From contig JAFGNZ010000239.1 of assembly GCA_016926755.1 (NCBI GenBank), forward strand, positions 1 through 32,169: 32,169 nt of DNA. Direction: 5' to 3'. This DNA comes from Myxococcaceae bacterium (GTDB lineage: Bacteria; Myxococcota; Myxococcia; Myxococcales; Myxococcaceae). The stretch's first letter is position 1. Each line of letters starts with the position of its first letter. Position numbers and translations under genes: made by a program. The notes beneath the pieces are model-generated. The model had not been told where the DNA came from. It did not search any database and was given only the letters and a program-made list of their open reading frames with translations. Below, piece by piece: positions 1,411 through 25,539 of the stretch.

Positions 1411-2868
1411 TCAGCGCTTCGCCGCGGGCAGAGGCGCGAAGCTCTTGTCCGAGAGCTTCATCTCCGTCACCGGGCCGTAGCGGCGGGCGACGTCGCGAAT
1501 GGCGGAGGCCTTGCCCAGGAGGACGAGGGTGAGGTCCTCCGAGGCCGGCAGCACGCGCTGGATGACACCGCGCACGCGCTGCGTGCTGGCGCTCGTCACG
1601 GTGTCGGCGAAGCCCTCCACGTCACTGGCGTCGAGCCCGTAGAAGGCCAGCTCCGCCAGCTTCGCGGCGAGCTGCCCGCTCGTCTCCAGCGAGGGCGGGT
1701 ACTGGCCCAGGACATAGGCCTTGGCGGAGGCGAGCGCCGCCTCATCCATGCCCTCGCGCCGGTACCGGGTGAGCACCTCGAGCGCCAGGTCGACGGCCTT
1801 CCCGGTGGACTCCGTCTTCGTGTACGAGAAGATCGCCACCGTGCCCGGCTGCGTCTCGCGCAGCACCATGGAGCTGGCGCCGTAGCTCAGGCCGGACTTG
1901 ATGCGCAGCTCCGTGTTGAGCAGCGAGGTGAAGCGGCCGCCCAGCAGCGTGTTGGCCAGCACCAGGTCCACGCGGCTCGGATCATCTCGCGCGATGCCGG
2001 TGTTGCCGAGCCAGAAGTACGTCTGGGTGGCGTCCGGCTTGTCCACCAGCAGCACCCGCCGGCCCTTCGCGACGGGCGTGGGGGGAGCCACGGGCGCGGC
2101 GACCCCGGCGCGCGCCCAGCCCCCGAGCGCGGCCTCCAGCCGGCTGGCCAGCTGCTTCGTGTCGAAGTCTCCCACCACCGCGAGGATGAGGCGATCCCCG
2201 CCCAGGTGGTCCCTGGCGTACGCCCGCACGTCCTCGCGCGTGAGGGTGGCGAGGGAGGCCTCGCTGCCGATCACCGGCCGCCCATAGGGGTGGCTGGAGA
2301 AGTGGAAGGCATGGGCGTAGAGGTCGATGAGGCCGCGCGGATCTCCATCCTTCGCGGCGGCGATCCCAGAGACCATCCGGTCGCGCATCTTCTCGAACTC
2401 GCTGGCCTCGAAGCGCGGCCGCATCAGCACGTCCGAGAGCAGCTCCACCATCAGCGCGGTGTCCCGTGCCAGGAAGCGGCCGTTCACCAGGAGCGCCTCG
2501 CGGGCCGCGGTGACGGAGAGCTCGCCCCCCACGCCATCCACGGCCTCCGCGAACTGGCGGGCATCGCGCTTGCCCGCGCCCTTGAGCAGCAGCTCCCCGA
2601 CGAGCGACGCCACGCCCTCCTTGCCCTGGGGATCCCCCAGGCCCCCGCCGCGCAGCCGCGCGCTGAAGGAGACGAGCGGCACCTCGTGCTTCTCCGCCAG
2701 GATGAGCCGGGCCCCGTTCTTCAGCTCGATCACCGTCGCCTTCGGCAGCCGCACGCCCTGCGGAGGGGCCGCGGCCGGCTTCGGCGCCACGGGCCGCGCG
2801 CCCTGCGCTCCCGCTCCCGTGGCGATCAGCAGCACCGCCAGCACCACCCTGCCCATGCTCCCGCTCAT
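1411..2868 (-). CDS. M16 family peptidase-like protein lacking the zinc motif
   Basis: 485 residues with a signal peptide (about 1-21) and two M16 half-domains. At the place where active M16 enzymes carry HxxEH, this protein has LVGEL (in the stretch after KEGVAS), so it cannot bind zinc in the usual way. The C-terminal half keeps the substrate-holding Arg/Tyr region ([12 protein letters not shown]). In M16B peptidases one subunit often supplies HxxEH and a partner supplies the Arg/Tyr motif, so this is most likely the non-catalytic partner of the gene just upstream. Its ATG overlaps that gene's stop by four bases (ATGA), indicating translational coupling. The signal peptide places the pair in the periplasm. 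Substrate unknown. Confidence 0.9.
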
Positions 2869-4244
2869 CGTCCCGCCTCCTTCTCCGTCAGGGCCTGTCC
2901 TTCATCCGTGGGCGCCAGCACTCCGACCGTGCGGCGCTCCGGGGAGAGGATGCGCTGGGCCACCTTGCGCACCTGCTCGCGCGTCACCTGCTCGTAGCGT
3001 GCGGGCGCCTCGAAGAGCTTGCGCCAGTCTCCGTGAAACACCTCATAGGTGCCCAGCTGATGCGCCCGGCTGCTGATCGTCTCCAGCCCGCGCCAGAAGC
3101 CCGCCACGGTGATGTTCTTCGCCTTGCGCAGCTCCGCGTCGGTGACGCCCTGGGAGCGCACCTTCTCCAGCTCCTCGCCGAGCAGCTTCTCCACCCGGGC
3201 CACGTCCCCGCCCGGCGGCAGGTCCACGAGGAACCACACCAGGGAGGGATCGAAGGAAGGCCCGGCGTGGCAGTTCACCTGGATGGCCACCCGCTCCTCC
3301 TCCACCAGCCGCCGGTGGAGCCGCGAGGAGTCCCCCTCGGCCAGGATGCTCGCGAGCAGCTCCAGCGCCGGCAGCTCCGGATCCTTCGCGTCCACGCCGT
3401 GGTAGGCCACCTGGAGCAGCGGGGCCTGCGCCATCCGCTTCACCTGCACGCGCCGCTCGCCCTGCTGCTCGGGCTCCTTCGTGCGCACCGGCTCGGGCGG
3501 CGGCTGCGAGGGCAAGGGCGCCAGGTACTTCTCCGCCAGCGCGAACACCTCCGCGGGCGTCACCGCGCCCGCCACCACGAGCGTGGCGTTGTTGGGCGCG
3601 TAGTACGTCTGGAAGAAGCGCTGCAGATCCTCCATCCGCCAGGACTCGATGTCCGAGGGCCAGCCGATGACGGGGAACTGGTACGGGTGCGCCACGTAGG
3701 CGGTGGCCTGCACCTGCTCCATCAGCGCCCCCATGTTGTCATTGTCGATGGCCGAGCGCCGCTCCGAGTAGACGACGCCGCGCTCGCTCTCGATCATCTT
3801 CGGATCGAAGGAGAGGTGCGCCAGCCGGTCCGCCTCCAGTTCGAAGATGGTCTCCAGCGCCGAGCGCGGGAACCACTCCATGTAGGTGGTGACGTCCTCG
3901 GAGGTGGAGGCGTTGTTGCTGCCCCCGGCGGCCTCCATGACGGTGTCGAACTGCCCGGGGCCGTACTTCTTCGCGCCGTTGAACATCATATGCTCGAAGA
4001 AGTGGGACAGGCCGGTGATGCCGGGGCGCTCGTTGCGGCTGCCCACCCGGAAGAAGTTGAAGAGGGCCACGTTGGGGATGTCGTGGTCCGGCCAGACGAT
4101 GACCTTCAGCCCGTTCTTCAACGTCCGGGCCTCGATGCCCGCGCCGAGCCGGGCCGCCTCCCCCTTCCCTGCCTTGCCCTGCGCCCCGGCGGCTGAGCCC
4201 ACCAGGAGCGCCACACCCACCACGAGCCACCGCTGACGGAACAT
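2865..4244 (-). CDS. M16 family zinc peptidase (catalytic subunit)
   Basis: 459 residues. A signal peptide covers about residues 1-21 (start [10 protein letters not shown], cleavage near AAGAQ). The inverted zinc motif HFFEH is at residues 81-85 and the third ligand is probably Glu161 in the ERGVVYSE stretch, the normal spacing for M16. The reading frame stays open upstream to about 4625, but the ATG at 4244 is preceded by a strong AGGGAGGGTGG ribosome site and is directly followed by the signal peptide, so I start there. It is first in a two-gene operon with the zinc-less M16 gene. Known for the family: chamber-forming peptidases that degrade or process peptides. The pairing suggests an alpha/beta heterodimer. 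Confidence 0.92.
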
Positions 4245-4326
4245 CCACCCTCCCTTTGCATACGCGCGCGCGCCGAACCTGCTGGCGGGGCGCATATTCC
4301 CAGGAGTCGGGGCGGATGGCTCGCCC

Positions 4327-7300
4327 TCATGCACCCAAGGCGGGGGAGGACCGGGCCCGGGCAGCCCCTGGCTCCGGCTCGGAGGTGAAGCGCAGCAGGG
4401 CCAGGAGCTGCTCGGGCGTGAGCGCGGCGGCCCCGTCCGCCCCGGAGAGCAGGCTGGAGGCCAGCTCCCGCTTCTCGGCGTGGAGCGCGACGATGGCCTC
4501 CTCGATCGTCCCTTCGGCCACGAGCCGGGACACCGTGACGGGCCGTGTCTGGCCGATGCGGTGCGCGCGATCCGAGGCCTGGTCCTCCACGGCCGGGTTC
4601 CACCACGGATCCAGGTGGATGACATGATCGGCGGCGGTGAGGTTCAGCCCCGTCCCCCCCGCCTTGAGCGAGATGAGGAAGACGTCTCCCTCGCCGCGCT
4701 GGAACGCCTCCACCCGCGCCTGGCGCTCGGCCGGCGGCGTCTGCCCATCCAGGTACTGGAGGGAGAAGCCCCGCGCCTCCAGCGCCTCGCGCGCCAGGCC
4801 CAGGAGCCGGACGAACTGGCTGAAGATGAGCGCCCGGCCGCCCTCGGCGCGCAGCTCCTCCACGCGCTCCAACAGCCGCTCCAGCTTCGAGGAGGACAGG
4901 GGCGCGTCCGGATCCACCAGGCGGGGGTGGCAGGCCAGCTGCCGCAGCCGGGTGAGGGCCGCCAGCAGCTCGAAGCGCTGGCCCTCGCTCACCGCGTCTC
5001 CCATCCGCTCCAGCGCGGCGAGCCGGACGCTCTCGTACTGCCGGCGCTCGCCCTCGGAGAGGACGACGGGGACGAGCGTCTCGATGCGCGGGGGCAGCTC
5101 GCGCGCCACCTCGGCCTTGGTCCGGCGCAGGAGGAAGGGGCGGAGCACGCGGGAGAGCGCGGCGCGGGCGGCCGGATCCCTCTCGCGCTCGATGGGCCCG
5201 GCGAAGCGCGCGCGGAAGGACTCGCGGCTGCCGAGCAGCCCGGGGAAGACGATGCGGAACAGGCTCCACAGCTCCGAGAGGCGGTTCTCCACCGGCGTGC
5301 CCGTGAGCGCCACCCGCGCCTCGGCCTGAAGCCCGCGCAGCGCCCGCGCGCGCGCCGTGTCCGGGTTCTTCGCGGCCTGGGCCTCGTCCACCACGAGCGT
5401 GGCGAAGGAGACGCCCGCGAGGCGCTCGGCATCCCGGACCAGCAGCCCGTAGCTGATCAGCAGCACGTCCCCCGCCTTCAGCCTCGCGAGCAGCTTCTCC
5501 CGGTCCGCCTCGGGGTAGGGCCTCACGCGCAGGGAGGGGGCGAAGCGCTCGGCCTCGCGCGCCCAGTTGGAGCAGACCGAGGTAGGGGCCACCACGAGCG
5601 CGGGCCCTGCCTTCACGCGGTGCAGCAGCAGGGCCAGGGCTTGCAGCGTCTTGCCCAGCCCCATGTCATCGGCCAGGCACCCGCCTCCGCCCCACTCGGT
5701 GAGCCTCGCCATCCAGGTGAAGCCCTCGCGCTGGTAGTCACGCAGCTCGGCCCTCAGGCCGGCCGGGAGGGGGATGTCGCGGACCTGGGACTTGCGGATG
5801 CGCGTGGCGAGCCTGCGCCAGTCCGGCGGGGCATGCACCTCCACGCCGGCCTTGGCCAGCGCGTCCAGCACGGGGGCCGCGGCCTTGCTCACCTCCAGCC
5901 CCGCGCGCGTGGGGTGCGCCAGATCCGCCAGGGGCGTGAGCTGCTCGCGCAGCGCCTGGGTGAGCCGCAGCCAGCGCCCCTTCCCCAGCGGTACGAAGCG
6001 GCGGCGGTGGCGCAGCGCCTCCAGCAGGGCGGACAGCTCCACCCGCTCCCCCTCTACCTCCACGCCTCCGCTGATGCCGAACCAGTCCCGCTCGCGCCGC
6101 ACCTCGATTCTGAGGCCCCGCGCATCCTGCACGCCGGACACGCGCCAGGGCTGCTGCTCCCACTCGACGCGCAGGCGCGGGCCGGTCAGCGGCTCCAGCC
6201 GCTCCAGGAAGTCCAGCGCCGCCTCCGCCCCCTCGAGGAGGAAGGGCGAGGAGGTGTCCGTCGCCTGCACCCCCAGCCGCTCGCGCAGCGTCAGGGCCTC
6301 GGCGCGCTCGGCCTCGAGATCCCGCTCCGTCACCACCCGCTCTCCTCCCCGCAGGCCCCGCACCTGGGGAGCGCCCTCGCCCGGCGGCAGCGGCGGCGCC
6401 TCCGGCAGCGGACGGACGCGGAGCTCCCCCTCCAGCGAGTCCTCTCCCACGGGCCGCAGGCGCAGCAGGAGGCCTGGCTCGGGGGGGACGGCGCGGGCCT
6501 CCAGGGACTTGGGGAGGGAGATGGGGCAGACGGACTCCAGCCCCACCAGGCTCCGCAGCAACGCGGGGCGCGCCTCCCCTGGCAGCCGCGCCCCATACTC
6601 CCTCAACCGGGTGAGCACCTCGCGCGCTCCCGGGGGGACATGGACCAGCGTCAGGCGCGGCAGCTCGGGCTCGAGCAGGAGCCAGGGCAGCGGCGCCTCG
6701 AGCCCGGCGGGCGGAGGCACGAGCGCCTCGGGACTGAAGACGCCCCCCTCGATGGCGGGATGAACCGTGAGGTCCTCGCCGCGCTCGGAGAAGGTGAAGC
6801 CGAGGGCGGCCTCCCGCACCCGGAGGGGCGCGTCCAGCCGGGCGTCGGCGACGAGGTGGGGGCTGTGCGCCAGGAGCCTCAGCGCGCGCAGCAGGAGCAG
6901 GTAGCCATCACCGGCGAAGGGGAGCCGGGCGCTGAGCTCCGCGAGCTCGAGCGCCTCCAGCTCGCGGGGATCCGAGAGGAGCGCGCGGGCCTCGTCCTTG
7001 TCCCGCCAGCTCACCTGCGAGCCCTTGGACAGGCCACCCTTCTTCACCGGGCGATGAGAGTAGATGCGCAGCCGGGGCTTGCCCTTCTCCAGCCCCTCCA
7101 GGCGGAAGCTCAGGCGCGAGATACCGTCGGGGCGAGCCCGCGGCTGCGCCGAGAGGGCGGCCTTCTCGAAGGCGGCGAGGAGCTCCCGGGCAGGCACCTC
7201 GAACAGCAGCTGCGCGAGGCGCGCGTTGAACTTCTCCCACTGGGGATCGGCGAGCATGTCGAGCAGCGCATCGAGCGCGGAGAGGGCATGGACGCAGCGA

Positions 7301-8289
7301 GCCACCTCTCCCCAGGTGCACCAGCAGGACAGGCCCTCCTGATCCTCGAGCAGCGCGCGCGGGTCCACCGTCACGCGCACCCTCACCAGCCTGCCCCAGG
7401 GCACCTGCGCATCGTTGGAGGGAGGTGGGCTGCCGGGCTCCTCGACGAAGAGGAGCAGCGGGCGCTCCCGGAAGGTGACCTCGGGCCTGCCTGGGAGGAG
7501 GCGAGGGACGGCGTGCTCCCGCACCCGGGCGCGCGCCCTCTCGAGGGCCTCCCTCCAGGGGATCAGGCGCGCATCCGTGGGGGGCGGGCGCGGCGAGGCG
7601 GCCTGGGCCTGCTCGTGCTCGAGCCCCCGGCGGACACGCTCGGCCTCCGCGCCCAGCCAGGCCCACACCGCCTCGCGCAGGAGGGCCTGGGTGGTGGCGC
7701 CTTGAACCTGCCGGCGCAGCTCCAGCGTCCCATCCAGCGGCGCGGTGACCGGCAAGTGCTCCAGCCCATAGAGCCCGGGCGTCTCGTGGAAGCCTCGCGG
7801 CAGGAACGGCCCCACCACGGCCAGGGGCATCCGCCGCGCATGGGTGACGTGGTGGGCCTCCAGCCACGCGTGGAGCGCTCCAGCCTCCTGGGGCCGCTCG
7901 TCCCGAGGCGGCGGCCGTGCCCGCTCCGAGACGGAGCCGCCCGCCTGAAGGAACGCCAGCCCGAGCGCGACGGCGTGCTCGCAGAACCCCTGGCTCCAGA
8001 AGGTCGTGCACTGGCACTCACAGAAGAAGCCATCCGCGTCGGTCGAGATGACCACGGTATAGGGCTGGCCGCGACGGCCGAGGACCTGGCCATGGAGGGC
8101 ATCGGGCAGCGCCTCGAACGAGGTGACGCGGTGCAGGGCCAGACACGCCTGGCCCTGCTTGAAGAGCCGCGAGCCCACCGTCTCATACAGCGCTTCACGG
8201 GTGAGCCACCGCCGCAAGGGCACCAGGGCCCCCGGAGCGGCAGGCCGGTGCGGAGACTGGGACTGGGGTGTCACATGTGGGTTGGCCAT
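4327..8289 (-). CDS. SNF2-family DEAD/DEAH helicase with two SWIM-type zinc motifs
   Basis: 1320 residues. An N-terminal SWIM zinc finger (CECQC...FCEH, about residues 86-101) is followed by a second CxC...CxH set (CWC...RCVH, about 320-333), then a long family-specific region. The C-terminal 500 residues form a full SNF2 motor: Walker A DDMGLGKT near 875, DEAQ near 967, TGTPVEN, then ISLKAGGTGLNL and DRAHRIGQTRPV near 1240. Known for the family: ATP-driven translocases on double-stranded DNA (HepA/RapA-like); SWIM domains bind DNA or protein. The start at 8289 has only a weak ribosome site and lies 34 bases after the 77-residue gene, so it may be translated from the same message. SNF2 proteins occur both in housekeeping and in phage-defence loci; which applies here is not shown. 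Confidence 0.9.
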   Translation of the reverse strand: MANPHVTPQSQSPHRPAAPGALVPLRRWLTREALYETVGSRLFKQGQACLALHRVTSFEALPDALHGQVLGRRGQPYTVVISTDADGFFCECQCTTFWSQGFCEHAVALGLAFLQAGGSVSERARPPPRDERPQEAGALHAWLEAHHVTHARRMPLAVVGPFLPRGFHETPGLYGLEHLPVTAPLDGTLELRRQVQGATTQALLREAVWAWLGAEAERVRRGLEHEQAQAASPRPPPTDARLIPWREALERARARVREHAVPRLLPGRPEVTFRERPLLLFVEEPGSPPPSNDAQVPWGRLVRVRVTVDPRALLEDQEGLSCWCTWGEVARCVHALSALDALLDMLADPQWEKFNARLAQLLFEVPARELLAAFEKAALSAQPRARPDGISRLSFRLEGLEKGKPRLRIYSHRPVKKGGLSKGSQVSWRDKDEARALLSDPRELEALELAELSARLPFAGDGYLLLLRALRLLAHSPHLVADARLDAPLRVREAALGFTFSERGEDLTVHPAIEGGVFSPEALVPPPAGLEAPLPWLLLEPELPRLTLVHVPPGAREVLTRLREYGARLPGEARPALLRSLVGLESVCPISLPKSLEARAVPPEPGLLLRLRPVGEDSLEGELRVRPLPEAPPLPPGEGAPQVRGLRGGERVVTERDLEAERAEALTLRERLGVQATDTSSPFLLEGAEAALDFLERLEPLTGPRLRVEWEQQPWRVSGVQDARGLRIEVRRERDWFGISGGVEVEGERVELSALLEALRHRRRFVPLGKGRWLRLTQALREQLTPLADLAHPTRAGLEVSKAAAPVLDALAKAGVEVHAPPDWRRLATRIRKSQVRDIPLPAGLRAELRDYQREGFTWMARLTEWGGGGCLADDMGLGKTLQALALLLHRVKAGPALVVAPTSVCSNWAREAERFAPSLRVRPYPEADREKLLARLKAGDVLLISYGLLVRDAERLAGVSFATLVVDEAQAAKNPDTARARALRGLQAEARVALTGTPVENRLSELWSLFRIVFPGLLGSRESFRARFAGPIERERDPAARAALSRVLRPFLLRRTKAEVARELPPRIETLVPVVLSEGERRQYESVRLAALERMGDAVSEGQRFELLAALTRLRQLACHPRLVDPDAPLSSSKLERLLERVEELRAEGGRALIFSQFVRLLGLAREALEARGFSLQYLDGQTPPAERQARVEAFQRGEGDVFLISLKAGGTGLNLTAADHVIHLDPWWNPAVEDQASDRAHRIGQTRPVTVSRLVAEGTIEEAIVALHAEKRELASSLLSGADGAAALTPEQLLALLRFTSEPEPGAARARSSPALGA

Positions 8290-9285: not shown

Positions 9286-12200
9286 GTGTCGTCACCGTTC
9301 CTGGCGATCCCCGAGTCCGAGTGGGTTGCCTCCAACACGCTGGCCTTCGCCATCCTCGACCGGTATCCGGTGAGTCCGGGACACACGCTCGTCATCCCCC
9401 GTCGGCCGGTGGCCACGTGGTTCGAGGCGACGACCGAAGAGCAGCGCGCCCTCTTCGAGCTGGTGGACGAGATCAAGCGGCGGCTCGACGCGAAGCTGGC
9501 GCCGGACGGCTACAACATCGGCTTCAACGTGGGTGAGGCGGCGGGGCAGACGGTGTTCCACCTGCACGTGCACGTCATCCCGCGATTCCGAGGGGACGTG
9601 GCCGACCCGAGAGGTGGGGTGCGGCACGTCATTCCGGGCAAGGGCAACTACCTGGTGACGCCCGCGAAGCCGCTGGCGACGGGTGGGGCGGAGGATCCCT
9701 TCCTACATCACGTGGAGCCGCTCTTCGGAAGAGCCACCGATGTAGCGGTGCTGGCGGCCTTCGTGCAGGACAGCGGGCTGGAGCTGCTGCACGCGGCTGT
9801 GGAGGAAGCGCTCCGTCGGGGGGCTCGGGTCCGCATCCTCACGGGGGACTACCTGGCCATTACCCAGTCCGTGGCGCTGCGCCGGCTGCTTGACTGGATG
9901 GACGAGAGCCAGGCACGGCGGGAGAAGAAGGCAGGGGGACTCTTCGAGGCGCGCGTGGTGGAAGTGGAGCGGCTCGGGCTTCGCTCCTTCCACCCGAAGT
10001 CCTGGCGCTTCGAAGGAAAAGGGCTCGCGGTGGCATTCGTCGGATCGAGCAACATCTCTCGGACGGCGCTGGACACGGGCATCGAGTGGAACCTGCGCGT
10101 CGAGCGCGACCGTGAGCCGCGCGCCTGGCAGGAGGTGGTCGCGGCGTTCGAGGCTTGGTGGGACCGGGCGCGGCCTTTGGAAGCAGCGTGGGTTGCGGAG
10201 TACGCGGACCGGGCCCGGAGAGCGGACCGGGCACCGCCGGCGGGAGAGCAGGAGGTGGAAGCGCCCCCTCCTCGGAACGAACCCCACGAAGTGCAGCAGG
10301 AGGCCCTTGCTGCGTTGGCGAGCAGCCGAGCCGAGGGGCGTCGCCGGGCGCTGGTAGTGCTCGCGACGGGCCTGGGGAAGACGCTGCTCGCGGTGCTCGA
10401 CATCGAGGCCGTGCGTACAGCGTCGGGCGAAATTCCACGAGTGCTCTTTCTGGCCCACCGGGCGGAGCTGCTGACCCAGGCGGCGGAGACGTTCCGGCGC
10501 CAGCTACCGGAGCTGCGCTTGGGTTGGTTCATCGGCGACCGGGCGGAGCTGGAGGGGGACGTGGTGTTGGCCTCCGTGCAGAAGCTGTCTCGCCCGGAGC
10601 ACCTTGCCCGGCTGAAGGCAGCGCCCTTTGACTACGTCGTCGTGGACGAGGTGCACCACGCGGATGCGGCGAGCTACCGGGCCATTCTCGGGCACCTCTC
10701 ACCCGCGTTCCTGCTGGGGCTGACCGCGACACCCGAGCGCGCGGATGAGGGAGACGTGCTCGGCCTCTTCGACGACCACGTGGCCTACCGGGCGAACGTG
10801 GGCGAAGGCATCGCGCGGGGGTTGCTGGTCCCGTTCACGTACCAGGGACTGAAGGACGACGTTGCCTACGAGAACCTCCCCTGGCGCAACCGGCGCTTCG
10901 ATCCCGAGCACCTGTCCGCGGCAGTGCAGACCGAGACGCGAATGCAGCGCCTGTGGAAGGCGTGGGAAGAGCATCCCGCCCGTCGCTCGCTGATCTTCTG
11001 CTGCTCGGTAAGCCATGCCACCTTCGCGAGGAAGTGGCTGAGCGCCAAGGGCGTGCGGGTAGCGGAGGTCCACTCGGGGCCAGGCTCCGCGAACCGGACC
11101 GAAGCCTTGAGGCAGCTTGCCCAGGGTGGGCTCGACGCGCTGTGCACGGTGGATCTGTTCAACGAGGGCGTCGATGTGCCGCTCATCGACCGGGTGGTGA
11201 TGCTGCGCCCCACGGAATCACCGGTGGTGTTCCTCCAGCAGCTTGGCCGAGGTCTGCGTCGAGCTGAGGGAAAGAAGAACGTCACGGTCATCGACTTCGT
11301 GGGCAACCACCGGGTGTTCCTGGACCGGGTGCGCACGCTGCTCGCGCTCGGCCGGAGGCCCCTGTCACTGCGGGACTTCCTGGTGGGTGGCCAGGAGCCC
11401 GAGCTGCCCGCTGGGTGCTCCGTGCAGGTAGAGCTGGAGGTGAAGGAGCTGCTCGCGAAGCTGCTCCCCTCCGGCCGCACGGAGGTGGAGCGCGTGTACC
11501 GCGAACTCCGGGATGCGCGAGGCCGCCGTCCCACGGCGGGTGAGTTGTATCGGATGGGCTACCGGCCAGGGACTCTGCGGGAGGGATACGGTGGCTGGTT
11601 TGGCTTCGTGGAGCGAGAGGGTGATCTCTCGACCGACGAGGCCCGCGCGCTGGAGGCGGGGCGGGAGTGGTTCCAGGAGCTGGAAGCCACCGTCATGCGC
11701 AAGTGCTTCGAGCTGGTGTTGCTGGAGGCGTTGCTCGAAGCGGATTCCCTGGAGCGGGGCATGGCGGAATCGGAACTCTCCGACCGAAGCCTGGCCATCC
11801 TTCGTCGTTCGCCGGAGCTGATGAGAGACCTGGAGGGTGTCACCGCGCTGGACAACCCACGCAACCCGAGCTCTCGCTCGTTCCGGGCATACTGGAGAGC
11901 GAATCCGATCAAGGCGTGGACTCAAGGAAGGTGGTTCCGAATCGAAGGAGAGCGCTTCGTCCCAAGGCTCTCGATTCCTGAGGATGCCCGGGCTGCCTTC
12001 CAGTCGCTGACGTATGAGTTGCTGGACTACCGGCTCGCCCAGTACCGAGCCCGGGCGAGCGCGGGAGTTCAGGGTACGGCCTTCGAGGCCGCGGTCACGT
12101 GGAACAAGCGCGATCCGATCCTGAAGCTGCCTTCGCGGGTCAAACGTCAGGATGTGCCATCGGGCGAGCTGGACGTCCGGATCTCCGATGGGAGCCTTTG

Positions 12201-13506
12201 GCGCTTCCGGATGATGAAGGAGTTCTGCAACGTCGCAAGCCCGGTGGGCACGGATCGCAACCAGCTTCCGGATCTCATGCGCCGCTGGTTCGGCCCTCAG
12301 GCCGGCCATCCGGGAACCGCCTTCCGCGTCCGATTCGTACCAGGACCGGATGGCTGGTGGGTGGAGCCAGTCCAGGCGGAGGTGATTCCCCTGATGCGCC
12401 CGGGCACGCTGGTGGCCTTCCCGAGCCTGCGAGCCGCCGCGGGCGCCGCGAGCCACGCGGTCGCACTCGAGAGCGCGCCTGAAGCCGAACGGATCCGCCT
12501 TCCCATCACGGCACAAGGTGAGGGGCTGTTCGCGGTGCGAGCCTCAGGCGATTCGATGGAAGGAGGCGAGCGTCCCATCCGAGATGGGGACTGGCTCGTG
12601 ATGCGCTACGCACGCGGAGTGAGCGCGAGCGGGGTCGTGGGCAAGGTGGCGCTCGTTCAAGTTCCGGATCCGGCTGGCTATGCCTATCAGGTGAAGCGCC
12701 TCATTCGTGAGAAAGACCGCTGGCTGTTGCGCTCGGACAATCCTGCTCGGGCCTCCTTCGAGGCGGCGGAGGACGTCGTTCCCATCGCGCTTCTCGTCGA
12801 GATCGTCCCCCCAGAGCGCCTGGGGCCTGAGCGTGGCGCGCACCTGACTGACGAGCAGGTCATGGAAGCGTTCGGGCTCGAAGCAGCTCCGAAAACAGGT
12901 CGGCGCAACGGACACCTGTTCCTCTGCGTCACGAGGAAGGAGGTGCTCGTAGAGCCCGCTCGGCTCGATCTTGGAATCGCGGATCGGCGGCCTGCTGAGA
13001 CGGCCTTCGTGCTCACGAGATCAGAGCCGCAAGGCCCATGGCGTTACTGGGGAGTGGCCCGCTGGCGCGAGGATGAAGACCGCTGGGCCCTCACGGAGCC
13101 GGTGGATTACGCGACATGGCGTGCCCTGGGCCACGGGCGCACCAGCTCGCGCAACCTTCCACCCGAGGCCATCGCCCGGGCAGAGGCCTGGATCGAGCAG
13201 TTGCTCCGCATCCACCCTCCGGGAACACGCCTCGAGCGCAACGGGAAGACTTGTCGCATCGTGGGCAGGTCCCCACGAAGTGGAGTGCGTATCGATGGAG
13301 GCCCGGGAGGCTTCGAGGAGCGGACAGTGAGCCTGACGGACATCGCCTGGACCTTGATGGCTCGGGACGACACGCGAAAGACAGGCGGCATGCTGGATGA
13401 GGCGCGCGTGAACCGTCTCCGCTACCTGGAAGGGACACCTCAGGCGTCGACCCGCTGGATTGACACAGGTTGGGCGCTGTTCCTCCTCTCTGAGACTGAG
13501 TCCTGA
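9286..13506 (+). CDS. HIT - PLD nuclease - SF2 helicase - S24/LexA-like multidomain protein
   Basis: 1406 residues from a GTG start. HIT domain at about 1-125 with its histidine triad H92-x-H94-x-H96. A phospholipase D-type nuclease domain follows (about 138-290) with HPK at 236-238 and GSSN at 253-256, one HKD-like half-site, so it would work as a dimer. An SF2 helicase core spans about 330-690: Walker A ATGLGKT 360-366, DEVH 454-457, TATP 480-483, QQLGRGLRR 651-659. Residues 700-1030 are a helicase-associated region I cannot name. An S24/LexA-like fold follows at about 1075-1175, with the expected catalytic Ser1090 (ASGDSM) and Lys1137 (QVKRL). The last 200 residues are unassigned. PLD-helicase proteins of this kind are common in defence islands, and Wadjet lies 1.8 kb away, so a DNA-targeting defence role is likely but unproven. 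The HIT domain could process nucleotides. Confidence 0.9.
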   Translation: MSSPFLAIPESEWVASNTLAFAILDRYPVSPGHTLVIPRRPVATWFEATTEEQRALFELVDEIKRRLDAKLAPDGYNIGFNVGEAAGQTVFHLHVHVIPRFRGDVADPRGGVRHVIPGKGNYLVTPAKPLATGGAEDPFLHHVEPLFGRATDVAVLAAFVQDSGLELLHAAVEEALRRGARVRILTGDYLAITQSVALRRLLDWMDESQARREKKAGGLFEARVVEVERLGLRSFHPKSWRFEGKGLAVAFVGSSNISRTALDTGIEWNLRVERDREPRAWQEVVAAFEAWWDRARPLEAAWVAEYADRARRADRAPPAGEQEVEAPPPRNEPHEVQQEALAALASSRAEGRRRALVVLATGLGKTLLAVLDIEAVRTASGEIPRVLFLAHRAELLTQAAETFRRQLPELRLGWFIGDRAELEGDVVLASVQKLSRPEHLARLKAAPFDYVVVDEVHHADAASYRAILGHLSPAFLLGLTATPERADEGDVLGLFDDHVAYRANVGEGIARGLLVPFTYQGLKDDVAYENLPWRNRRFDPEHLSAAVQTETRMQRLWKAWEEHPARRSLIFCCSVSHATFARKWLSAKGVRVAEVHSGPGSANRTEALRQLAQGGLDALCTVDLFNEGVDVPLIDRVVMLRPTESPVVFLQQLGRGLRRAEGKKNVTVIDFVGNHRVFLDRVRTLLALGRRPLSLRDFLVGGQEPELPAGCSVQVELEVKELLAKLLPSGRTEVERVYRELRDARGRRPTAGELYRMGYRPGTLREGYGGWFGFVEREGDLSTDEARALEAGREWFQELEATVMRKCFELVLLEALLEADSLERGMAESELSDRSLAILRRSPELMRDLEGVTALDNPRNPSSRSFRAYWRANPIKAWTQGRWFRIEGERFVPRLSIPEDARAAFQSLTYELLDYRLAQYRARASAGVQGTAFEAAVTWNKRDPILKLPSRVKRQDVPSGELDVRISDGSLWRFRMMKEFCNVASPVGTDRNQLPDLMRRWFGPQAGHPGTAFRVRFVPGPDGWWVEPVQAEVIPLMRPGTLVAFPSLRAAAGAASHAVALESAPEAERIRLPITAQGEGLFAVRASGDSMEGGERPIRDGDWLVMRYARGVSASGVVGKVALVQVPDPAGYAYQVKRLIREKDRWLLRSDNPARASFEAAEDVVPIALLVEIVPPERLGPERGAHLTDEQVMEAFGLEAAPKTGRRNGHLFLCVTRKEVLVEPARLDLGIADRRPAETAFVLTRSEPQGPWRYWGVARWREDEDRWALTEPVDYATWRALGHGRTSSRNLPPEAIARAEAWIEQLLRIHPPGTRLERNGKTCRIVGRSPRSGVRIDGGPGGFEERTVSLTDIAWTLMARDDTRKTGGMLDEARVNRLRYLEGTPQASTRWIDTGWALFLLSETES

Positions 13507-15257: not shown

Positions 15258-16697
15258 TTGCACCCCACTGCCATACCCGACCTCTTCGGACGTGTGCCGG
15301 CAGCGCTGTTCGGGCCGCTCTCCGGCCCCCTGGCGCCGCTCTACTGGGCGCTCCTGGCGCGGTACTACCAGTACGAGTTCGAGCGCGAGCCGTTCGCGCT
15401 GGTGAAGCCGGCGGCCCTCGAGATCGCCGAGCAGCTCCTGCGCGCCTCCGCCCCCTGGCAGGAGCGGCGTGAGGAGCTGCTCTCGCTCGCGGGGGAGGCC
15501 TCGCCCTCCGAGCCCGAGCTGGAGCTCGCGGACGACGGCGCGCTCGCGCGTGCCACCGCGCGGCGGCTCGTCTCTCGCTTGGAGGCCACGGGCTGGTTCC
15601 ACTTCGAATACCGCAGCACCGTGGGCCAGGTGCTGAGCTTCCATCCCTGGGCCGCGCGCGTGCTCGACACGCTGGTCCGCGTCGCCCGAGACGAGCAGCC
15701 CATCTTCCAGGGCTACGCCCACTCCATCGCCACCCTGCTCAAGCCCGACACCTTCGCCAGCCGCCCCGGCGTGTCCCTGCGTGAGGCGCGCCGCCACACG
15801 CTCGAGCTCGTCCGCGAGCTCAAGATCCTCAACCGCAACATCTACGCCTTCACCCAGCGCCTGCTCGACGAGGTGACCACCGCCTCCGGAGTGCTCGCGG
15901 AGGGGATCGACCACTACCGGGACGCGGTCATGGCCAACTACCACCGCCTCAAGACGGTGGAGAACCTCTACCGCTGGCGCACCGATATCCTGTTGCGGCT
16001 CGACGCCATCGAGCGGGACTCCGTCTCCACCGAGTCCGCGGCGGGCTGGTATGCCGACCAGCTCGGGCTCGATCCGAGCGCCGCCGCCCGGCAGGTGCAG
16101 GAGGACCTGCACCTCATGCGGATGCAGTTCGAGACGCTCCCGGAGATCACCGACGACATCGACGCGCGCAACGCCCGGTTCAGCGGCGTGGCCCTCCGCA
16201 AGCTGATGTACCTGCTGCGGCAGGACCGCCGGACGGAGGGGCAGCTCCAGTATCTCGTCGAGCAGCTCGCGCGAGACGAGGCGCCGGAGCTCGACTTCGA
16301 CGTCTACAAGTGCGAGCTGCTCTGCGACGGCTTCCTCTACACGCCGCCCACGCGACGACCGAGGGCAACACCCCAACCGCTCCCCCCTCGACGGCATGCG
16401 CTGTCCGAGGACGTCCGGAAGCAGCTCGCCGAGCGCTTGCGCAACCCCTTCGCGAGGGCCCGCCTCGAGGAGTTCATCGGGGCGCTCCTCGGCGCGAGGC
16501 AGGGGGCCGCCATGGAGGAGGTCCCCCTGGAGAATGACGGGGACTACGTGCGAGCCATCCACCTCGTCGCCCATGGGCTCGACGGCAGAGGGACGTACCG
16601 CTTCCGTCCCGCGGAGGACGCCGCTCGGACGCCGGTACGCAGGGGCGTCTACACCGTGCCCGCGGGCCACCTCGAGCGCGCGCGGAAGAGGGGGTGA
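15258..16697 (+). CDS. jetA: Wadjet protein JetA (kleisin-like subunit)
   Basis: 479 residues, mostly helical. After the opening PDLFGRVPAALFGPL it has the extended helical middle (TLELVRELKILNRNIYAFTQ) expected of the JetA family, and its place before a JetB/JetC/JetD set settles the identity. In Wadjet, JetA is the MukF-like kleisin that bridges the two JetC heads and binds JetB, forming a DNA-loop-extruding motor. The start is a TTG at 15258 without a good nearby ribosome site (GGAGG lies some 25 bases upstream), so the exact N-terminus is uncertain. The stop overlaps a possible GTG start of jetB. This heads the four-gene operon. Confidence 0.87.
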   Translation: MHPTAIPDLFGRVPAALFGPLSGPLAPLYWALLARYYQYEFEREPFALVKPAALEIAEQLLRASAPWQERREELLSLAGEASPSEPELELADDGALARATARRLVSRLEATGWFHFEYRSTVGQVLSFHPWAARVLDTLVRVARDEQPIFQGYAHSIATLLKPDTFASRPGVSLREARRHTLELVRELKILNRNIYAFTQRLLDEVTTASGVLAEGIDHYRDAVMANYHRLKTVENLYRWRTDILLRLDAIERDSVSTESAAGWYADQLGLDPSAAARQVQEDLHLMRMQFETLPEITDDIDARNARFSGVALRKLMYLLRQDRRTEGQLQYLVEQLARDEAPELDFDVYKCELLCDGFLYTPPTRRPRATPQPLPPRRHALSEDVRKQLAERLRNPFARARLEEFIGALLGARQGAAMEEVPLENDGDYVRAIHLVAHGLDGRGTYRFRPAEDAARTPVRRGVYTVPAGHLERARKRG

Positions 16698-16702
16698 CGG
16701 CC

Positions 16703-17374
16703 ATGGACTTCTTCGCCGAATACCCGCGCCTGGAGCCAGCCCAGCAGGAGCGCTTCCGGCTCGTCATCACCCGGCTGCTCTCCGGCGAGGTGCTCACCCC
16801 GGGAGAGGCGCTCCGACCGGACGCGGACTGGCGCTTCGCCGAGCGCTTCCGCGAGCTGCTCGAGGCCTACCTGCGCATCGGCGGATGGAGGCTCGACATC
16901 GACCTCAGCCTCCGCCTGTGCCGGGCTGTCCACGAGGCGGGGGAGCAGCGCGTCCGCTTCAACAAGCTGGAGAGCCTGGTGCTGTGCACGCTCCGGCTGG
17001 TGTACCACGAGCAGATGCAGCAGGCGACCGAGGAGGTCCGCTGCGAGGTGCAGCTCGGCGACCTGCGCGAGCGGCTCATCCAGAGTGGCCGCCCCGCGCA
17101 CCAGCTCCACCGGCGAGCCCTCGTGAACGCGCTGCGGCGGCTGGAGCGCCACTCGCTCGTCGCGCTCGGGCGCGGCATCACGGGCGAGGACACGGACCGG
17201 TTTCACGTCCACCCGCTCATCGAGAAAGTCCTGCCGCCCGACCGCATCGCCGAGCTGTTCGAGCGTGTCCGCGCGTACGCGGCCGAGAAGCCGCGGGAGA
17301 ACGGCGCCGAGCCCGAAGCGAGCGAGGCCGACGGCGAGGGGCAACCCCAGGCAGAGGAGGAGGACGCTCCATGA
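16703..17374 (+). CDS. jetB: Wadjet protein JetB (KITE-like subunit, DUF4194)
   Basis: 223 residues from the ATG at 16703, which has AGAGGGGG eight bases upstream; an in-frame GTG at 16694 that overlaps the jetA stop is the alternative. The body has winged-helix character (LVNALRRLERHSLVAL, about 135-155) and an acidic tail rich in Glu and Ala. In the complex JetB dimers bind the JetA kleisin, as KITE or MukE proteins do in other SMC complexes. The gene overlaps jetC by four bases (ATGA). Confidence 0.88.
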   Translation: MDFFAEYPRLEPAQQERFRLVITRLLSGEVLTPGEALRPDADWRFAERFRELLEAYLRIGGWRLDIDLSLRLCRAVHEAGEQRVRFNKLESLVLCTLRLVYHEQMQQATEEVRCEVQLGDLRERLIQSGRPAHQLHRRALVNALRRLERHSLVALGRGITGEDTDRFHVHPLIEKVLPPDRIAELFERVRAYAAEKPRENGAEPEASEADGEGQPQAEEEDAP

Positions 17375-20300
17375 TGCGCCTCGAGGCGGTCCGCCTCATC
17401 CACTGGTACCACTTCCAGCACGAGCTCCTGCCCATCAACGGCAGCTGCCTGATCTTCGGAGACAACGGGAGCGGCAAGTCCACGGTGCTCGACGCCATCC
17501 AGCTCGCCCTGGTGGCGGACCAGACCGAGATCCGGTTCAACAAGGCGGCCAACGAGCACAGCCGCCGCAGCCTCCATGGCTACGTGCGGCACAAGCTCGG
17601 CTCGGAGGACGAGTCCCGCCCTGGCCAGCTCCGGTTCGGCCGCGGCGCTTGCACCAGCTATGTGATGCTGCGCTTCAGCGACGAGACAGGCAGCCGCCCG
17701 CCGTTCGTCTGCGGCATGGTCCTGGAGGCCGGCGAGGAGGACACGGCCGTCCAGAAGTGGGGCTTCGTCATCCCCGACGTTGCCCTGGAGGAGGTGCCTG
17801 CGCTCGCGCCCGGCGAGGTGGTCCGCACCGCGCGAGACTTCCGCATCCAGCTGCGGGCCCTCCCGAAGGCGCAGTCCTTCCCGGACGTGGGCACCTATCG
17901 GGACGATGTGCGGCACCGGCTGGGGCTGCTGCCGCCATCCTTCCACCGGCTCCTGGTGAAGGCCCTGGACTTCAAGCCCATCGGTCAGGTGCGCGACTTC
18001 GTGTTCCACTACCTGCTGGATGAGCGGATGGTCGACACGGCGGCGCTGCAGGCCAACATCGAGCACTACAAGCGCCTGGAGGCCGAGGCGCGCGCGGCGG
18101 AGCGGCGCATCGCCGACCTCGATGCCATCTGCGCCCAGGGCGAGCGCATCCTCCACAAGCGGCGCACCGCCGAGGCTCACGAGTACCTGATCCTGCGCGC
18201 CCGCCAGCACCTGGCCGAGGAGCGCGCCCAGGAGACGGAGGCGGAGATCGCTCGCATTCAGCTCACGCGTCAGCAGAACGACGCCGAGCTGGCGCGGCTC
18301 GACAAGGAGCTGGCGTTCCTCGAACGGGAGCACGAGCGCATCATCGGCCTGCTCCAGGCGGACCCCACCTACCATCAAATCCAGGCGCTCGAAGCCGAGA
18401 TGGAGCGCGCGCGGGAGGACCTGAGGCGAGCCGAGCACAGCGGCCTCGAGGCCCGGGGGCTCCTGGAACGACAGACGGAGTTCCTCTCGCTGCTGCTCTC
18501 GGAGGGCGCGAGAGATCTGCGGAGGAAGCGCCAGGAGCTGTTCCGGGAGGACGAGCTGGTGGGCGCGTCCGAGGAGCCTGCCCTCATCCAGCGCCTCCGG
18601 GAGACGCTGGCTCGGGACGGCGCGCTGGCGGGCCGAGACCTGTCTACCTGGAGCGGCCGACTGGACAAGGCCGCGGAGACGCTCGGGCGCGCGAAGCTCA
18701 TCCTGGAAGAGCAGCACCGCCGCGCGCGTGATGAGGGGCGGGAGCTCGAGGCCGAGCGGCAGGAGCTCGAGAAGGGGCGCCAGACGTATGACGCTGGCGT
18801 GGCGGCGCTCCTCCACCTCCTGCGCGCCAGGCTGAAGGGGCGCCGCGCCCCGGCCCCGCTCTGCGAGCTCATCGAGGTCCCCAACCCTCGCTGGCGCAAC
18901 GCGGTGGAGGGCTACCTGAACACCCGCCGCTTCGACATCCTGGTGGACCCCGAGGACTTTCCCCGGGCGCTCTCGCTCTACGAGAAGAACAAGCGCGGGT
19001 ATGACTTGCCCGGGCGTGGCTCTGTCTTCATCTCCGGTGTCGGCCTCGTGGACATCGAGCGCCTCCGCGAGCGCCAGCCCAGCTCGCGCCCCCGCGCTCT
19101 CGCGCTGCAGGTGGAGACGGAGGATGAGCTCGCCCGCGCCTACGTGGACTTCGTGCTCGGCGACGTCATCTGCTGCGACGACGAGCAGGAGCTTCGCCGC
19201 CACGCGCGAGCCATCACCGACACCGTCATGGTGTACCAGAACTTCGCCGCGCGGCAGACGCCCCCGAGCGTGTACTCGCGGCCCTACATCGGCCAGGCGG
19301 CGCGGCTCCGGCGCAAGGACGCCATCGAGGCCCGGCTGGGCGAGCTGCACCAGGAGTTCGTCTCGGCCGCGGCGGACATGGAGTGGCTGAAGGCGGCCCT
19401 GAAGCGCTGCCAGGATGCACGTCTCGGCGCGGCGCAGCTGCCGCGGCTGGTGGACGAAGCGGAGGAGGCACCGACGCTGCGCGCTCAGCTGGCACAGCTC
19501 GAGCGGAGGCACAGCCAGCTTGACCGTGGCGCGCTGAAGCAGCTCGAGCAGGATCGACTCCAGATAGAGGCGGACCGCAAGAAGCGGGGGGAGGAGCAGA
19601 AAGAGGCCCAGAAGCGGGCGGGCACCCTGGAGAGCGATGCGCGCGGCGCGGCGAAGCGGCGGCAGGAGGCTGAAGAGGGGCTCCAGCAAACCCGGACGGC
19701 CCTGGAGGCTACGAGCATCGCCCAGAACGCCGAGCGGCGCTCCGAGGCCGAGGCACGCTACCTCCAGGCGCACGCCGAGAGAGGCGCGGAGCGCATCGTC
19801 ACCGTCTTCGAGCACCAGCGCAGCATCGTCATCGGCGAGGTCCACAACCTGGTGCAGAAGATGGTCGAGCTGAAGACACGGTTCGCCAACGACTATGGCT
19901 TCGCCGGCGAGACGCTCGGAGAGGGTTACGCCGAGCACGAGGCCGAGCGGGAGCGTTGGCGCGAGAGCCGGCTCCCGGAGTACCGGGAGCGCATCGCCGA
20001 GGCCAAGCGCAAGGCCACCGAGCAGCTCGCGGAGGACATCATCTTCCGGCTGCGCGAGAACCTCCTGCTGGTGCAGCGGCAGTTGAACGACCTGAACCAC
20101 GCGCTCAAGGACGTCCCCTTCAACGGCGACCGGTATCAGTTCACCCGGGAGGTTGCTCCCACCCATCGGCCGTTCTACGAGCTCATCATGGCGGCGGGGC
20201 AGTTCGAGCGGGACTCCCTCTTCGGCACGCAGACGCTGGCCAGCGAGGAGTCCCGCCGCACGCTCCAGGAGCTGGTGGACCGACTCCTCGAAGGAGAGGC

Positions 20301-20769
20301 GCGTGAGGTCAAGACGGAGCTGGAGGCCCGGGCCGACTATCGCGAGTACTTCAACTACGACATCCAGATCACCCAGCCGGATGGCTCGAAGTCCTCTTAT
20401 GACAAGGTGGCCGGCGACAAGTCGGGGGGCGAGACGCAGACGCCCTACTACATCGCCATCCTCGCCTCGATGTACCGGATGTACCGCGCCGGGGCGTTGG
20501 AGGGAGGGCCCGCCTGCGGCCTGGTGCTGCTGGACGAAGCCTTCTCGAAGATGGACGAGCAGCGCATCGCGGCCATGCTCCGGTTCGCGCGCAACCTGGG
20601 CTTGCAGCTCGTGATGGCGACGCCCAAGGAGCGCGTCACGCTGGTGGCGCCGTGGGTGGAGCGCTCGCTCTTCATCTACAAGGACCTGCACTCCGGCGAG
20701 CCCTCTGTCTCGGACTTCACCAAGGAGCTCTCCCGCGATGATGGCGCCCGAGCTGTCGGCGCGGCGTGA
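17371..20769 (+). CDS. jetC: Wadjet protein JetC (SMC-like ATPase)
   Basis: 1132 residues from the ATG at 17371, which overlaps the jetB stop; the open frame extends far upstream, but MMRLEAVRLIHWYHFQHELL is the usual N-terminus of this class. Walker A GDNGSGKST is at 30-38, the ABC signature SGGE near 1018 and Walker B LVLLDEAFSKMD near 1052-1063. Between them lie a first coiled coil (about 240-470), a globular hinge-like part (about 490-655) and a second coiled coil. Known role: ATP-driven loop extrusion by the JetABC dimer on circular plasmid DNA. All ATPase motifs look intact. Its end overlaps jetD by 32 bases. Confidence 0.93.
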   Translation: MMRLEAVRLIHWYHFQHELLPINGSCLIFGDNGSGKSTVLDAIQLALVADQTEIRFNKAANEHSRRSLHGYVRHKLGSEDESRPGQLRFGRGACTSYVMLRFSDETGSRPPFVCGMVLEAGEEDTAVQKWGFVIPDVALEEVPALAPGEVVRTARDFRIQLRALPKAQSFPDVGTYRDDVRHRLGLLPPSFHRLLVKALDFKPIGQVRDFVFHYLLDERMVDTAALQANIEHYKRLEAEARAAERRIADLDAICAQGERILHKRRTAEAHEYLILRARQHLAEERAQETEAEIARIQLTRQQNDAELARLDKELAFLEREHERIIGLLQADPTYHQIQALEAEMERAREDLRRAEHSGLEARGLLERQTEFLSLLLSEGARDLRRKRQELFREDELVGASEEPALIQRLRETLARDGALAGRDLSTWSGRLDKAAETLGRAKLILEEQHRRARDEGRELEAERQELEKGRQTYDAGVAALLHLLRARLKGRRAPAPLCELIEVPNPRWRNAVEGYLNTRRFDILVDPEDFPRALSLYEKNKRGYDLPGRGSVFISGVGLVDIERLRERQPSSRPRALALQVETEDELARAYVDFVLGDVICCDDEQELRRHARAITDTVMVYQNFAARQTPPSVYSRPYIGQAARLRRKDAIEARLGELHQEFVSAAADMEWLKAALKRCQDARLGAAQLPRLVDEAEEAPTLRAQLAQLERRHSQLDRGALKQLEQDRLQIEADRKKRGEEQKEAQKRAGTLESDARGAAKRRQEAEEGLQQTRTALEATSIAQNAERRSEAEARYLQAHAERGAERIVTVFEHQRSIVIGEVHNLVQKMVELKTRFANDYGFAGETLGEGYAEHEAERERWRESRLPEYRERIAEAKRKATEQLAEDIIFRLRENLLLVQRQLNDLNHALKDVPFNGDRYQFTREVAPTHRPFYELIMAAGQFERDSLFGTQTLASEESRRTLQELVDRLLEGEAREVKTELEARADYREYFNYDIQITQPDGSKSSYDKVAGDKSGGETQTPYYIAILASMYRMYRAGALEGGPACGLVLLDEAFSKMDEQRIAAMLRFARNLGLQLVMATPKERVTLVAPWVERSLFIYKDLHSGEPSVSDFTKELSRDDGARAVGAA

Positions 20770-22747: not shown

Positions 22748-23060
22748 TAGGTGATGGCCGCTGCATGCAGAGTGGCGGCCCCATGAAGCATGGCTCGTTG
22801 CTGGCGAAAATCCTCGCGACCCGATCCAAGGCTCCTCCTTCCCCTCATCCGCTCAAGTGGGCCGCCTGAGGAACTTGCCACTCATGAGCGTCCGAGAGTG
22901 CCCGACACTAGGTCCCAGGTCGCGACGGAAGCGCCGGCGGAGTAGGGTGCGCATCTTCCGCAGAAACTGTCCCTGCGGCTCGCTGGAAACCCGCCAAAGA
23001 CGGCCTCCTGGATTATGCTCCTCACGCCTCAGTACCTCAGGGGACGATGAAGGGGGCGGT
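22748..23060. other. Gene-poor gap with possible remnants
   Basis: About 310 bases with no gene I can support. One rightward frame stays open from about 22740 to 22868 in the +1 frame after the SUKH stop, with no recognised sequence. Near 22965 a frame reads NCPCGS, resembling the core of a SEC-C zinc motif but without its second cysteine pair; this may be chance. The gap probably also carries the promoter for the HipA-like gene. Confidence 0.4.
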
Positions 23061-25445: not shown

Positions 25446-25466
25446 TGAATTCTCTTGGGTTTTCTG

Positions 25467-25539
25467 TGCCCAGGGGCGGAATCGAACCACCGACACGGGG
25501 ATTTTCAGTCCCCTGCTCTACCGACTGAGCTACCTGGGC
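25467..25539 (-). tRNA. tRNA-Phe (anticodon GAA)
   Basis: 73 bases folding into a full cloverleaf: acceptor GCCCAGG/CCTGGGC with discriminator A, D-stem GCTC/GAGC, anticodon stem GGGGA/TCCCC around the loop CTGAAAA (anticodon GAA), T-arm with TTCGATT. CCA is not encoded (CAG follows the discriminator). The integrase remnant lies on its 3' side. I could not find a second copy of its 3' end in the window, so the att repeats are not established. Confidence 0.96.

Follow-up and report, generated by a model that had tools for sequence, protein, structure and literature searches.

The window examined here (the whole 32,169-nucleotide stretch of a Myxococcaceae contig that was analysed) carries a gene whose product, P0001, unites a HIT domain, a PLD-type nuclease, a superfamily 2 (SF2) helicase-type ATPase and an S24 domain of the LexA/UmuD fold in a single open reading frame (ORF), 9286-13506. 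Judged by its sequence, P0001 is a SauUSI-like relative, a nuclease-helicase of defence type, with the S24 domain set between the motor and a C-terminal reader. We propose that it works as a SauUSI-like ATP-driven restriction enzyme in which RecA-stimulated self-cleavage of S24 at Ala1052-Gly1053 would part the motor-nuclease from the reader and end reader-guided restriction; we rate this model close to, and somewhat below, an even chance. In what follows, L-numbers denote the loci of relatives and G-numbers the genomes of the family.

The first-pass annotation, made from the sequence letters, had described one gene with HIT, PLD, SF2 and S24 parts, and this was borne out by a single 1406-residue frame and by Pfam matches above curated cut-offs to HIT (residues 12-102, 6e-24), PLDc_2 (169-292, 5e-7), ResIII (332-485, 4e-34), Helicase_C (555-658, 1e-12) and Peptidase_S24 (1051-1160, 4e-9). 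The residues it had named, H92/H94/H96 (a HIT triad of the form HxHxHxx), H236-K238, GSSN 253-256, the SF2 motifs, Ser1090 and Lys1137, are all at their places. An alignment of P0001 with nine relatives at 39-71% identity shows H92, H94, H96, H236, K238, G253-N256 and K365 to be invariant. Full-length relatives that are 72% identical occur in the same bacterial family, which indicates a real gene and no chance fusion. The complete order is HIT, PLD, SF2, coupler, B3-like, S24, SRA-like and C-terminal extension; the domain search and structure prediction recovered every domain listed at first and added two that had been missed, the SRA-fold reader and the B3-like domain. An NCBIfam scan of P0001 gave no model at its cut-off among the 25 families listed of 27.

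The kinship with SauUSI lies in the motor-nuclease core, where a PLD nuclease bearing the HxK and GSSN motifs is joined in P0001 to an SF2 ATPase. Its best PADLOC family is mREase_IV (residues 150-723, E 2e-90) and its best PDB chain is SauUSI, 7clg (residues 154-677, E 2e-73), followed by RadD at 1e-19, which supports the earlier assignment to defence-type nuclease-helicases. SauUSI forms a dimer whose chain runs from a PLD nuclease (1-191) through an SF2 ATPase and a helical coupler (618-805) to an SRA-fold target recognition domain (806-953), and target recognition switches the ATPase on (available part of PMC7913695). P0001 shares with this type IV enzyme of Staphylococcus aureus, dependent on 5-methylcytosine (5mC) or 5-hydroxymethylcytosine (5hmC), the order PLD, SF2 ATPase, helical coupler and C-terminal SRA-fold reader; it differs by a HIT domain at the N-terminus, a B3-like domain, S24 ahead of the reader and an extension at the C-terminus. 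The C-terminal part of SauUSI bears the Pfam name DUF3427 (PMC3874153, as far as its available text goes). The corresponding profile, PF11907, finds nothing in P0001 at E<=0.1, while it matches L041/L091, L032, L086, L138 and L136; hence we call P0001 SauUSI-like and not a profile-based member of the family.

The reader was identified by structure. AlphaFold2 models were built for residues 669-1406 (mean predicted local distance difference test score, pLDDT, 87.4; 33 sequences) and for residues 1178-1406 (pLDDT 85.8; 7 sequences). In the predicted model, P0001 has a C-terminal target recognition domain of the SRA fold: the top structural match is the SauUSI reader, residues 803-953 (Z 10.1, 2.5 A over 103 residues), and the next 15 rows (Z 5.3-6.8) comprise SUVH5, ScoMcrA, PvuRts1I, AspBHI, UHRF1/Np95, TagI and one lattice entry at UHRF1-like residues; the matched places in ScoMcrA, PvuRts1I and AspBHI are presumably their SRA domains. 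Foldseek alone on the 1178-1406 model found nothing at E<=0.001, so the assignment rests on the second-look aligner together with positional equivalence. The reader is nearly 50 residues shorter than its SauUSI counterpart. Another C-terminal domain, with the pattern SRGG..G....RN..Y..GL..LL.R, occurs in L027, L028, L093, L100 and L108, relatives with and without S24, and is possibly an alternative reader.

Upstream of S24, residues 932-1032 align with plant B3 domains (VIA-align, predicted model) at Z 6.6-7.2, which is middling, yet several different B3 entries concur. A PDB sequence search with this part gave a sole match at E 1.4, and Pfam gave three families with one member each, the best at 0.006 (DUF1869), which we regard as chance. 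Across 32 aligned sequences it forms a conserved domain some 110 residues long (window 12079-12381) with the consensus NxLPxLLRxWFGPxAGxPGT and no convincing Pfam family.

The S24 part (about residues 1040-1177 of the predicted model) superimposes on LexA (3k2z, Z 14.1), CI (8gmu, Z 13.5) and UmuD (8gmt, Z 11.3), and structures of LexA, CI and UmuD with the RecA filament are among its matches. Besides this fold, P0001 has the putative S1090/K1137 dyad and, contrary to the first-pass statement that no Ala-Gly site of the LexA type was obvious, a conserved Ala1052-Gly1053 dipeptide. The fold, the Ser-Lys dyad and an Ala-Gly 37 residues before the Ser are common to P0001 and to LexA, lambda CI and UmuD; the 37-residue distance is the spacing of lambda CI, and the dipeptides cut are Ala-Gly in LexA and CI and Cys-Gly in UmuD. 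Unlike these proteins, P0001 has no repressor helix-turn-helix (HTH) and no polymerase partner, its S24 being placed between the motor and the reader of a nuclease-helicase; directly before S24, where LexA repressors have their N-terminal HTH, P0001 has other domains, and its Pfam scan shows no HTH family.

We aligned 46 S24 parts, P0001 included, of which 45 are distinct (L041 and L091 are the same gene). At residues 1052-1053, 31 of the 45 read Cys-Gly and 14 read Ala-Gly, each pair being preceded by Ala, and Ser1090, Met1091, Gly1101 and Asp1102 are invariant. The genome's own LexA, VPLLGKVAAGA, aligns with FPSLRAAAGA of P0001. At the Lys1137 column, Lys stands in 16 of 45 (all with HIT), Arg in 28 and Met in one (L091, with Lys next to it). 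In Myxococcaceae, Lys is found in all 21 rows readable at this column, and most Arg-bearing sequences belong to a proteobacterial clade in which a methyltransferase substitutes for HIT. As read from the alignment, the P0001 clade thus has a complete predicted Ser-Lys dyad together with the candidate site, and the mainly proteobacterial clade has the Ser, the site and an Arg; a LexA with Arg at the place of the catalytic Lys is impaired, a point for which our literature search gave no confirmation.

S24 is inserted at the junction with the reader. The S24-free L032, which is 41% identical, passes from the B3-like part directly into DUF3427, and L041 has S24 between the B3-like part and its DUF3427 match; P0001 has the order of L041 with a diverged, compact reader. 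The relatives are the best 80 of 458 from an alignment-based scan; as similarity to P0001 decided the ranking, every count is biased in favour of P0001-like proteins. Single-sequence scans of genome contigs and viral contigs yielded no relative; among 72,556 plasmid records none matched 80% of the query at a single site and 19 matched a part of it, the matches being annotated 'DUF3427 domain-containing protein' or 'DEAD/DEAH box helicase family protein'.

S24 occurs in 44 of the 80 relatives, in several phyla, either before the reader or at the protein end. HIT occurs in 42 (as a separate upstream gene in L152; weakly in L149 and the contig-cut L112), in 29 of them without S24, five of these being cut by a contig end. 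Both domains are present in 13 relatives, in one frame in 12, and neither in 7. HIT- or methyltransferase-PLD-helicase-DUF3427 proteins share the core of P0001 and most lack either HIT or S24. The HIT-PLD-helicase core is therefore widespread, and the four-part single-frame form is a minority architecture (12/80). It had been noted beforehand that homologues mostly lacking HIT or S24 would speak against the four-part reading, and that the architecture matched no named system; by the first point the four-part form counts as a minority variant, and the second is corrected in that the protein belongs beside the known SauUSI-type restriction enzymes.

An N-terminal class I S-adenosylmethionine (SAM) methyltransferase, recognized by sequence motif, replaces HIT in 21 of the 80 relatives, all with S24 (in a second frame in L143), and Pfam confirmed it in both relatives scanned, L136 and L138. 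Of these, L138, from Rugamonas rubra, is Arg-bearing. Ten S24-bearing relatives have neither HIT nor a fused methyltransferase; a methyltransferase-motif frame lies just upstream in eight, and none was seen for L125 and L132. On a Pseudoalteromonas plasmid the methyltransferase is likewise a separate gene, adjoining an ABC-three-component system. On the core tree (87 rows; a quick LG+G4 tree in which 26 of the 84 inner branches are open and some branches are long), methyltransferase relatives nearly always have S24 (29 of 30 rows), and S24 gain or loss requires 4 changes, with L082-L084 and L143 counted as S24-bearing and L079 and L104 cut by contig ends; with so many open forks, the distinction between a single and a multiple gain of S24 is not firm.

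Two groups of shorter relatives bear on the predicted products of cleavage. Seven HIT relatives (L087, L092, L095, L096, L097, L101 and L113) stop 0-13 residues past the B3-like part, and neither an S24 nor a DUF3427-like match was found in the rest of their loci (P0001's own diverged-reader profile was not run there). Their domain content equals that of the P0001 fragment predicted after cleavage between 1052 and 1053, which suggests that this fragment can be a working enzyme. In ten further relatives (L115, L118, L120, L121, L123, L131, L132, L133, L137 and L140) S24 is followed directly by the protein end, and the locus shows no DUF3427-like match; the plasmid protein H4 and L082-L084 likewise end with S24. 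The last three form a sister lineage whose C-terminal end is a different version of S24 with Ser, Lys and AAAG and no reader after it.

Starting from the domains and their order, the conserved dipeptide, Ser and Lys, the predicted folds and the RecA and LexA of the genome, we infer the following course. The intact enzyme would be a PLD-nuclease dimer loaded by the SRA-fold reader onto modified (e.g., 5mC- or 5hmC-containing) foreign DNA, which it would translocate along and then cut, and the HIT domain would probably remove a nucleotide adduct or a dinucleotide signal. RecA filaments on damaged, recombining or incoming single-stranded DNA would press S24 into its cleavable state, and Ser1090/Lys1137 would cut Ala1052-Gly1053 to give residues 1-1052 (HIT, PLD, SF2, coupler and B3-like) and 1053-1406 (S24, SRA and extension). 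SRA-guided restriction would stop at this point: the SauUSI ATPase is activated by reader binding, so guided cutting should cease once the reader is lost. The N-terminal fragment set free would have the domain content of the natural short relatives. The genome has two full RecA genes and one LexA above cut-off, LexA and P0001 being its only PF00717 matches. The dipeptide and Ser in 45/45 and the alignment of the site with VAAG of the genome's own LexA support the model, in which the cleavage itself is a prediction. A bolder version, to which we assign a clearly lower probability and which we regard as doubtful, is a proteolytic reset of targeting: RecA-triggered cleavage would remove the modified-base reader, and the HIT-nuclease-motor-B3 enzyme that is left would be targeted differently. 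DNA damage would thereby re-program restriction directly, without transcription. Several bacterial lineages would have acquired this module at the reader junction, and an Arg-bearing branch would have turned into a RecA dock.

Several observations weigh against self-cleavage as the general function. The Lys is Arg in 28/45, so cleavage may not be a shared function, and relatives ending with S24 have no reader, so its removal cannot be the function everywhere. The S24 sequences were chosen mostly by a profile of P0001's own family that includes the dipeptide, and its presence in 45/45 is somewhat favoured by this choice; eight relatives outside the alignment (L082, L083, L084, L115, L118, L122, L143 and plasmid protein H4), found without the family profile or below its threshold, also have the Ser and Ala-Gly or Cys-Gly. 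The shorter SRA part and the lack of a DUF3427 match mean that the modified-base pocket may be altered. A LexA box (deltaproteobacterial consensus) matches upstream of the genome's own lexA, and the window contains none with <=2 mismatches, compared with 0.93 expected by chance. LexA control of the P0001 gene is consequently unsupported and there is no sign of SOS transcriptional control; RecA, if acting, would act on the protein, not visibly via the promoter.

The chief alternative, favoured for the Arg-bearing relatives and otherwise rather unlikely, is that S24 does not cleave and serves as a dock or dimer clamp. By attaching to RecA filaments, or by pairing in the manner of UmuD', it would direct the nuclease-helicase to DNA coated with RecA, for instance recombination intermediates of phages or incoming single strands. 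The exchange of Lys for Arg, the position of S24 as the last domain, at the reader's place, in 10/80 relatives and in H4, and the RecA-filament structures among the structural matches agree with docking; the retention of the dipeptide and Ser throughout the alignment, and of Lys in P0001's own family, would be needless for a mere dock. The first-pass annotation had allowed both for release of an active fragment and for a sensor-only S24; the LexA/UmuD fold predicted here is compatible with the former, and the latter suits the Arg-bearing relatives better than P0001.

Cleavage might instead arm the enzyme, if S24-SRA restrains the nuclease and SOS self-cleavage frees a less specific nuclease against phage or host DNA in an abortive defence. 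The natural HIT-PLD-helicase-B3 relatives without S24 or a recognized reader indicate that the fragment could be active alone; however, reader binding in SauUSI activates rather than restrains (PMC7913695, available part), and a suicide nuclease triggered by ordinary DNA damage would presumably be costly, and we find this improbable. Much the same low probability attaches to a DNA-repair or nucleotide-handling helicase outside defence, a role to which the RadD and XPB-like helicase matches, the HIT domain and a conserved chromosomal place would correspond: a neighbouring match to the M16-peptidase gene (window 2865-4301) at >=73% identity is present in 16/34 flanked loci, which places the gene often at an old chromosomal site in Myxococcaceae. 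This role is opposed by the far stronger match to SauUSI than to RadD, by a reader fold common to modification-dependent restriction enzymes and by a patchy distribution, with the HIT-type gene or fragments of it at E<=1e-60 in 28/96 family genomes (hand count). Several copies are broken, which also speaks against this role: in G040 (L075 7351-8336) a large internal loss has spared only the parts coding for residues 1-66 and 1135-1406, which lie in different frames, and in G006 (L057) the gene is interrupted near residue 1075, its remainder lying about 1.7 kb away; patchy presence and decay fit an accessory defence gene.

Table 1. Features of the P0001 gene, its neighbourhood and its methyltransferase-bearing relatives (window positions unless a locus is named).
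Feature	Position	Strand	Basis or remark
Whole gene, 1406 aa, GTG start	9286..13506	+	single open frame; full-length relatives at 72% identity
HIT domain, residues 12-102, His triad H92/H94/H96	9319..9591	+	PF01230 6e-24; triad invariant in 10-sequence alignment
PLD-type nuclease domain, about residues 150-300, H236/K238, GSSN 253-256	9733..10185	+	PF13091; SauUSI match begins at residue 154
SF2 helicase-type ATPase, about residues 325-680	10258..11325	+	PF04851, PF00271; 7clg match
Helical coupler region, about residues 690-930	11353..12075	+	AlphaFold2 model; positional counterpart of SauUSI coupler 618-805
B3-like DNA-binding fold (predicted), residues 932-1032	12079..12381	+	VIA-align to plant B3 domains; without Pfam family
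S24 / LexA-UmuD-fold domain, residues 1037-1178	12394..12819	+	PF00717; structural matches to LexA, CI, UmuD
Predicted self-cleavage dipeptide Ala1052-Gly1053	12439..12444	+	Ala-Gly/Cys-Gly in 45/45 distinct sequences; aligned to VAAG of the genome's own LexA
Predicted catalytic Ser1090 codon	12553..12555	+	Ser in 45/45
Predicted catalytic Lys1137 codon	12694..12696	+	Lys 16/45, Arg 28/45, Met 1/45
Compact SRA-fold target recognition domain (predicted), residues 1181-1283	12826..13134	+	match to SauUSI 803-953
C-terminal extension of no known function, residues 1290-1402	13153..13491	+	missing in several relatives
Type I Wadjet, complete	15258-22054	+	JetA 15258-16697, JetB 16694-17374, JetC about 17365-20769, JetD 20738-22054
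Class I SAM methyltransferase relatives, fused or separate upstream gene	L138 2357-6244, L136, L116, L127; L162 7341-7943		

The 34 flanked loci extend <=~8 kb per side, some are cut by contig ends and three hold gene fragments only. A functional pairing of P0001 with the adjoining Wadjet system was rejected as a general feature, JetA-D being found in 0/34 of these loci. The survey of defence neighbours that had been suggested at first was carried out with PADLOC on 104 flanking ORFs of 17 loci (62/166 ORFs were omitted, mostly shorter ones, including four of L107 and all eight of L081). Among the matches listed at E<=1e-15 (62 families matched) are HamA, HamB, BrxL, AbiEii, HNH and PDC-S08 with one member each and SoFic and PDC-S07 with two members each; Hachiman, BrxL, AbiEii and SoFic thus occur near distant relatives, and as the scan had no control set, these matches are suggestive only.

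Other genes of the window were seen in passing. An SNF2-type helicase at 4327-8289 (-) has strong matches to the DpdE model, but it also has counterparts beside this locus in several Myxococcaceae and is probably an ordinary SNF2 protein rather than part of a Dpd system. A gene pair at 22857-24643 (+) resembles, by eye, a HipA-type kinase with a DUF3037-like partner and has a weak PADLOC match, PDC-M03A; a tRNA-Phe gene lies near it at 25466-25539.

The core of P0001 is of a known kind, and the insertion of S24 at the reader junction is apparently undescribed. We found no published description of S24 in SauUSI-like or other restriction enzymes, nor of the exchange of HIT for methyltransferase or of the conserved cleavage dipeptide, among the papers listed, which cover few subscription journals and so give no proof of novelty; LexA and S24 are mentioned nowhere in the text available from PMC7159879, PMC10853773, PMC7641849 and PMC7913695. 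A link between restriction and DNA damage is known from the ClpXP-dependent restriction alleviation of type I enzymes (available parts of PMC4231737 and PMC11109961).

If the proposed model is true, a LexA/UmuD-type domain at the reader junction would be a direct one-protein link from RecA filaments to restriction. The S24-bearing form is widespread (44 of the best 80 relatives, several phyla) and has a defined predicted cut site, and its Arg-bearing members may provide a natural comparison between cutting and docking.

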